Below are positions 9,992-13,371 of a stretch of 35,190 bases of DNA, piece after piece (position 1 is the stretch's first letter; every line of letters begins with the position of its first letter). A program made the translations under genes and the position numbers. The notes under the pieces were generated by a model. The model did not search any database. It worked only from the letters and a program-made list of their open reading frames with translations, and had not been told where the DNA came from. Location: positions 1-35,190 of the forward strand of contig JAISKM010000006.1 of the NCBI GenBank assembly GCA_031261285.1, given 5' to 3'. The stretch comes from Candidatus Symbiothrix sp. GTDB lineage: Bacteria > Bacteroidota > Bacteroidia > Bacteroidales > Azobacteroidaceae.

Positions 9992-10020
9992 AATTATGAA
10001 TTATGAATTATGAATTATGA
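9992..10020. repeat. Heptamer tandem array, unit AATTATG
   Basis: There are four exact units of AATTATG between the rpsA promoter and the hicA promoter. The unit is one base away from the GTTATGA array at 26061 when rotated. Confidence 0.95.
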
Positions 10021-10058
10021 GTTTTTTTCAAGATTTCACAAAAAATAGTGCTGAAAAA

Positions 10059-10090
10059 TTTGGATATATAACAAAAATGCTATATCTTTG
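10059..10090 (+). promoter_or_regulatory. hicAB promoter (TTTG - 20 nt - TATCTTTG)
   Basis: TTTG at 10059-10062 and TATCTTTG at 10083-10090 lie 25 bases before the hicA ATG. The -33 box sits in the context GCTGAAAAATTTG, which also occurs in the 84-bp repeats at 10825 and 11181. Confidence 0.75.
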
Positions 10091-10115
10091 CGAGGTAATT
10101 AAAAACAAATCCAAT

Positions 10116-10298
10116 ATGAAATGGTCAGAGTTAAGAAGAATTGCAGAGAGAAACGGTTGGCTGTTTCAAAGAAATGGTGGAAAACATGATATTTATGTAC
10201 ATCCGGACAAAGATTATAAAATTGAAATTGAGCGACATGGCTCTCAGGAAGTGAAGCCTGGATTGTACTACAAACTAAAAAAACAGATAGGGTTTTAA
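10116..10298 (+). CDS. hicA: HicA-type mRNA interferase toxin
   Basis: HicA toxins are small double-stranded-RNA-binding-fold RNases that cleave mRNA when freed from HicB. This 60-aa protein has the classic layout KWSELRRIAERNGW...QRNGGKHDIYVHP, with His24 in the GGKH motif as the likely catalytic residue. The ATG at 10116 is chosen, rather than an upstream in-frame ATG at 10017, because the promoter box lies between them and family members start with MKxxEL. The antitoxin gene follows 34 bases downstream. Confidence 0.92.
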   Translation: MKWSELRRIAERNGWLFQRNGGKHDIYVHPDKDYKIEIERHGSQEVKPGLYYKLKKQIGF

Positions 10299-10332
10299 GC
10301 CCTGTCTGCAAACAATAAAAAGCACGAACAAC

Positions 10333-10734
10333 ATGAAAACAAGAGCATTAATTGAACGAGGAAAAGACGGAACGTATGGTGTTTTTACGCCCGACATTAA
10401 TCACACAATTATTGGGGATGGAAATACTGTGGAGGAAGCAATAGCAGATTTTGAAAATTCAGTTAGAGAAATGAAATTGTCCTATACTGAAAACGGTCAA
10501 GAAATACACGATGAATTGAAAGATTTAGAGTTTGTGTATGAATACGACATTGCATCTATGTTTGATTATTACAATTGGATTAATGTCACACAATTTTCAA
10601 AAAAAGCGGGAATCAATCCTTCGTTGATGCGACAATATCGCATAGGTAAAACTTATATTTCAGATAATCAAAAGAGTAAGATTGAAAATACTTTACATGA
10701 ATTAGGTCAAGAATTAGCAGCAATCAAACTCTGA
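10333..10734 (+). CDS. hicB: HicB-type antitoxin
   Basis: HicB neutralises HicA and usually represses the pair. The N-terminal half is a partially degraded RNase-H-like HicB fold (residues 1-60: TRALIERGKDGTYGVFTP, then TVEEAIADFENSV). The C-terminal part (about 80-133: INVTQFSKKAGINPSLMRQYRIGKTYISDNQ) is a helix-turn-helix DNA-binding domain. It lies 34 bases after hicA and is followed by a strong terminator. Autoregulation at the upstream promoter is expected from the family; no operator could be defined. Confidence 0.92.
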   Translation: MKTRALIERGKDGTYGVFTPDINHTIIGDGNTVEEAIADFENSVREMKLSYTENGQEIHDELKDLEFVYEYDIASMFDYYNWINVTQFSKKAGINPSLMRQYRIGKTYISDNQKSKIENTLHELGQELAAIKL

Positions 10735-10779: not shown

Positions 10780-10810
10780 AAAACCCCGCATCAAACCGAT
10801 GCGGGGTTTT
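10780..10810 (+). terminator. Intrinsic terminator of hicAB
   Basis: A 13-bp stem (AAAACCCCGCATC with GATGCGGGGTTTT) with loop AAACC ends in a T run, 46 bases after the hicB stop. Confidence 0.92.
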
Positions 10811-10824
10811 AATTTACTTAACTT

Positions 10825-10908
10825 ATATTTTCTGAAAAAACAAAAAATAGCAAGGCTAATCAAAATAATTTGCAAAAATATCGCTGAAAAATTTGAAAAT
10901 CAAAAATA
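10825..10908 (+). repeat. 84-bp direct repeat, copy 1
   Basis: This copy is identical to 11181-11263 except for one extra A. It is AT-rich and not palindromic, starting ATATTTTCTG and ending AAATCAAAAATA. Together the two copies bracket the PIN remnant. Confidence 0.97.
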
Positions 10909-11180: not shown

Positions 11181-11263
11181 ATATTTTCTGAAAAAACAAA
11201 AATAGCAAGGCTAATCAAAATAATTTGCAAAAATATCGCTGAAAAATTTGAAAATCAAAAATA
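11181..11263 (+). repeat. 84-bp direct repeat, copy 2
   Basis: This is the second copy, 272 bases after copy 1. Its TTTG at 11247-11250 serves as a -33 box for the promoter of the following leader; copy 1 lacks a downstream -7 box. Confidence 0.97.
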
Positions 11264-11277
11264 AACCTGTATCTTTG
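11247..11277 (+). promoter_or_regulatory. Promoter of the structured leader (TTTG - 19 nt - TATCTTTG)
   Basis: TTTG at 11247-11250 and TATCTTTG at 11270-11277 form one of the best -33/-7 pairs in the window. Transcription would begin near 11283, more than 300 bases before the next ORF. Confidence 0.75.
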
Positions 11278-11282
11278 TTGCA

Positions 11283-11604
11283 TAATTCTAACGATTCAAA
11301 GCGTTGATAGTTAGAAGGACATACGAAATAGAAGCGTTTATGACATTATTCCTGCGTTGAAAACTCGAAAATTTTAATAGGTAGGGGATAATAGGCAAAA
11401 ACGCTCATGTCATTTTTTATAGAGACTCATAGTATCTATATCGATTTGGCATGAGCTATTGTTTATTATCTATCTTGGGCTTTCGAGTGCCTCAATGCAG
11501 TAATATTCAATAGTACTCATGCCATTTTTGTGTTTAAATGGCTGGCACAAAAACAGGGTCGCTGAAAACTGAATAGAGTAGGCAAAAATAAAAATATTAT
11601 TGTT
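11283..11604 (+). ncRNA. Candidate structured RNA / long leader of unknown family
   Basis: No convincing ORF occupies this stretch, yet it contains several complementary segments. TTCTAAC (11286-11292) can pair with GTTAGAA (11310-11316). ATGACAT (11340-11346) can pair with ATGTCAT (11407-11413), enclosing GCGTT (11354-11358) with AACGC (11400-11404); AGCGTTT at 11333 could compete for the latter. GGCATGAG-CTATTG (11448-11461) pairs with CAATAG-TA-CTCATGCC (11508-11523), with an inner TTGGGC/GCCTCAA stem. GCCATTT/AAATGGC (11521-11542) competes with TTTTTGTG/CACAAAAA (11525-11553). The 3' end carries a 29-nt motif repeated before the HNH-like gene. I do not recognise a described RNA family. 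It could be a riboregulator of the downstream gene or a stand-alone RNA. Confidence 0.55.
11561..11589 (+). repeat. 29-nt direct repeat, copy 1 (before the 71-aa ORF)
   Basis: The motif begins GCTGAAAACTGAATAG and ends GTAGGCAAAAAT. It lies 15 bases before the ATG at 11605 and is identical to 13099-13127. The preceding bases (AGGGTC here, AGGGAA there) are also similar. Confidence 0.95.
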
Positions 11605-11820
11605 ATGAATAATTTAGATTTAAAAAAGCGGATTATTGCTCTTATTAATGAGGGTATTATTACAGACCCTGAAATATTAAATATACTAGAAGAATTTGAG
11701 ATTACAGGGGAAATTAATTTGCGCACAAAGATGAGTATTGATAATCAAAATACCATTAAAGAATTAGTGAAATATTTCAAAAATAATCCGGATACATCGT
11801 ATTTAGATTTTATGGCATAA
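11605..11820 (+). CDS. Small orphan protein, 71 aa
   Basis: I do not recognise this protein. It is acidic and helical in appearance (LDLKKRIIALINEGIITDPE...NILEEFEITGEI), has no cysteines, no signal peptide and no membrane segment. The ATG at 11605 follows the 29-nt motif. It ends 14 bases before the secreted GLUG/T9SS gene, so the two are probably co-transcribed from the promoter at 11247-11277. Its position directly behind the structured leader makes it a candidate component or regulatory target. The coding call rests on an open frame, good spacing and conserved-looking composition only. Confidence 0.6.
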   Translation: MNNLDLKKRIIALINEGIITDPEILNILEEFEITGEINLRTKMSIDNQNTIKELVKYFKNNPDTSYLDFMA

Positions 11821-13080: not shown

Positions 13081-13098
13081 TATATCTATATAAGGGAA

Positions 13099-13127
13099 GC
13101 TGAAAACTGAATAGAGTAGGCAAAAAT
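13099..13127 (+). repeat. 29-nt direct repeat, copy 2 (before the HNH-like gene)
   Basis: This is an exact copy of 11561-11589, placed 16 bases before the ATG at 13144. The rest of the structured leader is not repeated here. Confidence 0.95.
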
Positions 13128-13143
13128 TAAACACTAAAAAACA

Positions 13144-13371
13144 ATGGCAAGATGTAGTAGAAAAGTTAATTTAGAAATCCATCATAAAAGACGTGATGGT
13201 GGAAATGGTTTAGAAAATGCAGAAGTATTATGTGAAAAATGTCACATTAATACGAGTACTTATGGGGTGAAAGGAACTACGCCTCCAGCTTTTTCTCCAA
13301 AAGTTAAATTGGAAGCACTAAAAAGAGCTGGTAATAGGTGTGAATGTACTCGTGTAACTTGTGGTCATTAA
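13144..13371 (+). CDS. Tiny HNH-like zinc protein, apparently permuted (75 aa)
   Basis: Residues 11-36 (EIHHKRRDGGNGLENAEVLCEKCH) match the core of an HNH nuclease: His13/His14, Asn25, Cys30-x2-Cys33-His34. In ordinary HNH domains a CxxC pair precedes this core; here only Cys4 does, while a cysteine-rich element (RCECTRVTCGH) comes at the C-terminus. That suggests a circular permutation or domain swap of the zinc knuckle. The frame is intact and ends at a hairpin terminator. The 29-nt repeat lies 16 bases before the start. Nuclease activity is plausible but the protein is very small; a DNA- or RNA-binding role is an alternative. Confidence 0.72.
   Translation: MARCSRKVNLEIHHKRRDGGNGLENAEVLCEKCHINTSTYGVKGTTPPAFSPKVKLEALKRAGNRCECTRVTCGH

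Follow-up and report, generated by a model that had tools for sequence, protein, structure and literature searches.

The leader described here, found in a 35,190-nt stretch of DNA from Candidatus Symbiothrix sp. (the whole of this stretch being the window referred to below), is one of many copies of a structured RNA that lies in cis before genes for secreted and surface proteins. It folds into a long rod, possesses a conserved alternative helix that competes with the tip of this rod, and belongs to a group of sequences enriched in promoter boxes at the 5' end and T-rich runs at the 3' end. Taken together, these features make it moderately probable that the leader is a cis-acting, attenuator-like element common to many surface-protein genes, and from the comparison of copies we infer both that it controls termination and that a signal sets it. 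A cis-acting, switch-like leader is a kind of element that is already known. The RNA class is absent from Rfam 15 and without a description in the open-licence literature searched, though a description in other papers is possible.

In the window, the leader is preceded by -33 and -7 boxes (Table 1) that fit the Bacteroidota sigma consensus, TTTG-N19-TAnnTTTG. No ORF of at least 60 aa lies wholly on the + strand in 11265-11604, and the MFE of 11280-11604 is -85.5 kcal/mol as opposed to -65.1 +/- 4.4 kcal/mol for shuffled sequences (z -4.64), with 0 of 100 shuffles as good. The first-pass annotation, which described a promoter-driven, structured leader of more than 300 bases without an ORF, was thus correct on each of these points. 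The 5' stem that it placed at 11286-11292/11310-11316 is also real and corresponds to hairpin P1, for which paralogues feature the variants TTCTAAC/GTTAGAA and TTCCGAA/TTCGGAA. Upstream of the leader are a HicA/HicB-like toxin-antitoxin pair (10017-10734) and then a strong terminator (10780-10810); toxin-antitoxin-like genes are also found upstream of leader copies L206, L199, and L201. A direct repeat of 73 nt (97% identical) occupies 10836-10908 and 11191-11263, 355 nt apart. The second copy of this repeat contains the -33 region of the leader promoter, and the first has no -7 box downstream.

Table 1. Positions of the leader, its parts, and the adjoining genes in the window.
Feature	Position	Strand	Remarks
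Promoter	11247-11277	+	-33 TTTG (11247-11250), 19 nt, -7 TATCTTTG (11270-11277); from sequence
Hairpin P1	11286-11316	+	Arms 11286-11292 and 11310-11316; compensatory variants in paralogues
Conserved 5' motif GGACAT	11317-11322	+	GACAT in many copies
Segment A (GAAGCGTTT)	11331-11339	+	Covariance-model match begins here
Match to covariance model R1 (rod, strand D, T-run)	11331-11534	+	53.7 bits, E 3.9e-8
P2, 5' strand	11352-11360	+	Pairs with 11492-11500; covarying helix
P3, 5' strand	11363-11370	+	Pairs with 11481-11488; covarying helix
Conserved inner-loop strand GGGATAATAGG	11385-11395	+	Consensus like AAGAATAAG
Strand B	11404-11411	+	Pairs with C; rod tip
Strand C, shared	11448-11461	+	Pairs with B (rod) or D
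P3, 3' strand	11481-11488	+	Covarying helix
P2, 3' strand	11492-11500	+	Covarying helix
Strand D	11508-11523	+	Complementary to C; largely repeats B
T-rich run after D, terminator-like end	11524-11532	+	
DUF805b-like element before start codon	11552-11584	+	RF02914 match
71-aa ORF, first gene past the leader	11605-11820	+	Sub-threshold DUF1493 match only
GLUG-motif surface protein, 408 aa	11835-13061	+	Weak T9SS sorting tail

Short paralogous matches to the leader were found with blastn in its own genome and elsewhere in the genus, and a side-by-side comparison of these homologues revealed a common plan consisting of P1, GGACAT, segment A, the long rod, strand D, and the T-run. Through one divergent relative, L016, additional copies were located in the own genome and in Bacteroidales of other families. 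Upstream of its leader (~2100-2480), this locus also features units like CGGTACTTTAAAACCC arrayed in tandem. Covariance model R1 was built from 13 training sequences from which the window copy and its close relatives were excluded, and it nonetheless finds the window leader (Table 1), with close relatives scoring 47-68 bits. The covariation score of the 13 training sequences is 0.514, compared to 0.167 for shuffled sequences and 0.07-0.10 with the partners slid. Across 77 diverse matches, in an alignment that was fitted to the model and hence favours structure, the score is 0.780 versus 0.204 shuffled, paired cells make up 92.9% versus 63.4% shuffled and 35-47% slid, and changes are seen on both sides in 23 of 24 pairs; the 13-sequence MAFFT alignment agrees.

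The copies differ mainly in helix sequence, and helix P2 displays all four Watson-Crick pair types at most positions. The covariation check that had been proposed for the stems therefore has a clear outcome, with the stem halves co-varying strongly in P2, P3, and C:D and with compensatory variants in P1. Other stems in the first proposal fared less well. The nested pair 11340-11346/11407-11413 and 11354-11358/11400-11404 could form in the window copy and is not the conserved fold, because its inner 5' arm falls within conserved P2. The two 3' stems drawn at 11521-11542 and 11525-11553 are, by eye, absent from the homologues, in which strand D and the T-run occupy their place.

The tip of the rod is hairpin B:C, and strand D, located 3' of the rod, shows complementarity to C and is for the most part a repeat of B. 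Among 53 copies of less than 70% identity, native C:D duplexes have a mean energy of -14.8 kcal/mol versus -10.9 kcal/mol for swapped partners (z -11.5), and none of 20,000 permutations was as good. The stem previously noted at 11448-11461/11508-11523 is real and is this key helix, which is both conserved and covarying. In many copies, segment A can pair with part of B, and it has a weak complementarity to D; both pairings (A:B, z -2.0; A:D, z -3.3) are weaker than C:D. Two mutually exclusive helices are thus conserved by covariation, namely C:D and the covarying rod tip formed by B and C, as in an attenuator. The earlier suggestion that competing stems point to a switch was sound with regard to the competition, and the competing pairs are different ones, B:C and C:D. 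The second helix is followed directly by a U-run: a T-rich run is present in 72 of 77 copies, compared to 55 of 303 stretches of background. No more than 100 nt upstream, 50 of the 77 diverse copies have a TAnnTTTG box, compared to 11 of 231 background stretches.

In having a strand, C, that is shared by antiterminator-like and terminator-like helices, a U-run after the second helix, and a position upstream of same-strand genes, the leader resembles attenuators and ON-type riboswitches with an intrinsic terminator. The logic of B:C and C:D likewise resembles that of the 2:3 and 3:4 helices of classical attenuators. It differs from these systems in that the long rod carries the shared strand at its far tip and not at its base, many unrelated surface genes are served by a single class, and no conserved leader peptide is seen. 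To our knowledge, a switch strand at the distal tip of a sensor rod is an arrangement not known from described riboswitches. A leader-peptide attenuator was considered and rejected, as no conserved short ORF is visible by eye in the 5' part. The conserved internal loops are at most suggestive of a riboswitch with a ligand.

As an attenuator-like element, the leader would function in the order in which its parts are transcribed. The transcript would start at its own promoter, P1 would be made, and the long rod P2-P3-P4-P5, tipped by B:C, would follow. Strand D would emerge last, right before the U-run, and could replace B as the partner of C. With the rod and B:C intact, C would be occupied, no terminator would form, and RNA polymerase would read into the surface-protein gene. 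If the rod were blocked or C freed, C:D would form before the U-run and transcription would stop. It is thus plausible that C:D is a transcription terminator and that B:C prevents termination, with a ligand, protein, or second RNA deciding between them. Nested folds in which C:D is forced are, on average, less stable than the rod with B:C by 13 kcal/mol, and the C:D loop is long. Because the rod is the more stable structure and is formed before D is transcribed, C:D would need help, and with the rod fold favoured to this extent, readthrough is probably the default state unless the rod is prevented from forming or is opened. In several plasmid copies from Bacteroides and Parabacteroides, D is kept and the T-run is absent. 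Termination therefore cannot be the function of every copy, and at least some members lacking the T-run must either operate in a different way or no longer possess the switch.

The retention of D in such copies is one of two observations that would suit a leader acting after transcription, in which the choice between B:C and C:D sets processing, stability, or translation start, together with a DUF805- or DUF805b-like element, and not termination. The other is the occurrence of these translation-linked elements after some copies. This alternative appears distinctly unlikely to us, given that a terminator requires a T-rich run such as the one found immediately past D in 72 of 77 copies and that the distance to the start codon varies widely. 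The resemblance to these elements comes from Rfam. At gathering score, there is no match in the whole window, and the rod (11280-11551) has no match in Rfam 15, either in the window or in ~40 homologous loci, at E limits of 0.5-2; the same is true of the rods in the named-host and plasmid records. At the E-value threshold, 11552-11584 alone matches DUF805b (RF02914), at 32.0 bits (gathering 35.6) and E 1.5e-5, over model positions 1-35 of 35. The claim that the leader matches no RNA family accordingly holds for the body of the rod and is not quite accurate at the 3' end, where the last 33 nt resemble DUF805b RNA. The corresponding element of the L016 copy scores 37.7 bits, and a DUF805-like element (RF03081) follows another leader copy, L197.

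DUF805b and DUF805 elements differ from the leader in being 35-68 nt in length, located just before start codons, and mostly without a rod. As a negative control, 79 named loci with the DUF805b core motif, nearly all of them from Bacteroidota, were searched for the rod at E 0.1, and it was found in none. A second DUF805b-like 3' motif lies at 13093-13131 in the window, directly before a 75-aa HNH-like ORF (13093-13371 region), and a relative of this ORF is located directly behind the leader copy in L149. The motif common to 11561-11583 and 13099-13121 had been considered as an integron or cassette boundary, a reading that was dropped, as the motif appears to be the DUF805b 5' UTR element. In L206, L198, and L209, a different conserved 5' UTR motif, GTTGCGCCCGACAC...AAGGGATT, precedes the start codon shortly past the T-run; it has no Rfam match.

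The position of the copies relative to genes is strongly biased. Of the nearest downstream ORFs of at least 100 aa in the own genome, 59 share the strand of the leader and 2 lie opposite; the spacing from the T-run to the downstream gene is short and consistent, with a median of 56-66 nt. Among first downstream ORFs, 68 of 83 in the own genome, where the downstream genes are partly paralogues, and 37 of 50 at other loci are signal-peptide-like, compared to 29 of 134 control ORFs taken from these loci (74-82% versus 22%, as called with a simple hydrophobicity rule). Pfam domains encoded downstream include TonB plug and CarboxypepD_reg (SusC-like), BspA LRR, the T9SS sorting domain (Por_Secre_tail), and SprB, along with BACON, Fib_succ_major, Big_2, GLUG, and outer-membrane barrels. 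A non-secreted minority comprises HNH, helicase, methyltransferase, and DUF4433 proteins. Many contigs of the own genome break off 80-500 nt past a copy, as would be expected if repetitive gene starts interrupted the assembly.

This arrangement bears on whether the RNA acts in cis or in trans. As a multicopy family of trans-acting sRNAs, the copies would each have their own promoter and terminator, C:D would be the sRNA terminator, exposed loops would pair with target mRNAs, and the position next to surface genes would result from shared duplication or be only partly functional. The promoter and T-rich end of the copies agree with such a family, as does the concentration of their differences in helix sequence. 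Multicopy sRNAs also have a precedent in the FopS family of Bacteroides, whose members feature a single-stranded 5' stretch and a terminator hairpin, act in trans, and are reported to have been deposited in Rfam (PMC11697453). The leader is similar to the FopS and GibS sRNAs in being a multicopy RNA family tied to surface-protein genes in Bacteroidales (PMC11697453). It is not a FopS member, having a different architecture and no FopS Rfam match. Against a trans-acting role stand the same-strand bias (59 versus 2), the short and consistent spacing past the T-run, and the presence of a like class of genes downstream across genera; these observations favour a role in cis, and we regard the trans-acting alternative as rather unlikely. 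The present class is possibly identical with a six-member sRNA family adjoining transposases and invertases that is mentioned in the same paper (PMC11697453). With 6S RNA the leader shares a long rod, internal loops, and a 3' terminator, which is putative in the leader; it differs in that ~107 copies lie upstream of genes as opposed to one or a few, and it has no Rfam match.

The class is abundant in its own genome and widely distributed beyond it. In the own genome (Candidatus Symbiothrix sp., 2.83 Mb, 171 contigs), there are 107 matches at E <=0.1, nearly all of them far below this value. The sequence in the window, which had been described as the leader of a 71-aa orphan gene, is thus not a single leader. 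Matches occur in 33 of 41 genomes of the genus, two of which have at least 70 candidates; the two smallest (1.0-1.2 Mb) have no covariance-model match. At the order level, 111 of 295 Bacteroidales genomes and 78 of 183 sampled genera contain matches, followed by 67 of 296 genomes at the class level and 44 of 394 Bacteroidota genomes at the phylum level, with per-genome counts at these three levels being lower bounds (at least 7-9 at the fullest). Named records with a match are a plasmid of Rhizosphaericola mali and, in the plasmid collection, records of Bacteroides finegoldii, Phocaeicola massiliensis, Parabacteroides distasonis, and Prevotella sp. oral taxon 299, where matches score 71-99 bits and have no annotated feature beneath them. 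Viral contigs scanned with the P1 pattern gave chance-like matches only, and blastn in phages found nothing.

How the surface proteins for display are chosen in Bacteroidota, a major gut and environmental phylum, is a largely open question. A phylum-wide RNA regulon, in which a class of switchable leaders responds to a common signal and thereby determines the set of secreted and surface proteins produced, is a tentative extension of the attenuator-like reading that we consider possible and somewhat doubtful. If true, it would provide the cell surface with one shared control point for TonB receptors, BspA, T9SS, and Fib_succ_major-type proteins. The RNA occurs in the human-gut species B. finegoldii, P. 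massiliensis, and P. distasonis, so direct testing is possible.

A further alternative is that the conserved unit is DNA rather than RNA. The imperfect palindrome could be a recombination or gene-conversion mark, or the boundary of a cassette in a mobile array, with the RNA fold being secondary. Such an origin would accommodate the serine recombinase just upstream of three copies, the toxin-antitoxin genes upstream of several, the near-identical downstream sequence that breaks the assembly, and the plasmid copies that follow mobilisation genes. We consider it highly improbable, since the recombinase is not adjacent in most copies, the genome has no integron integrase over cut-off, and a recombination site, unlike an RNA, would not be expected to have the promoter, T-run, strand bias, and C:D pairing. 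An integron attC array in particular was rejected, as no match in the genome exceeds the TIGR02249 cut-off and the copies are dispersed. The serine recombinase (~221 aa), or a C-terminal fragment of it, ends 26-45 bp before the leader RNA in L149 (G000 C143), L143 (G062), and L005 (G000 C65). In the Parabacteroides and Phocaeicola plasmid copies L380 and L381, the RNA sits between a relaxase-like 468-aa ORF, ~1.5 kb upstream, and the cargo genes, which in L380 encode a DUF4433 protein. Pairs of leaders ~1.3 kb apart on one strand are found on G000 C42, C169, C116, C35, and C145, and in these a short-type leader and its gene usually come first, with a long-type leader behind them.
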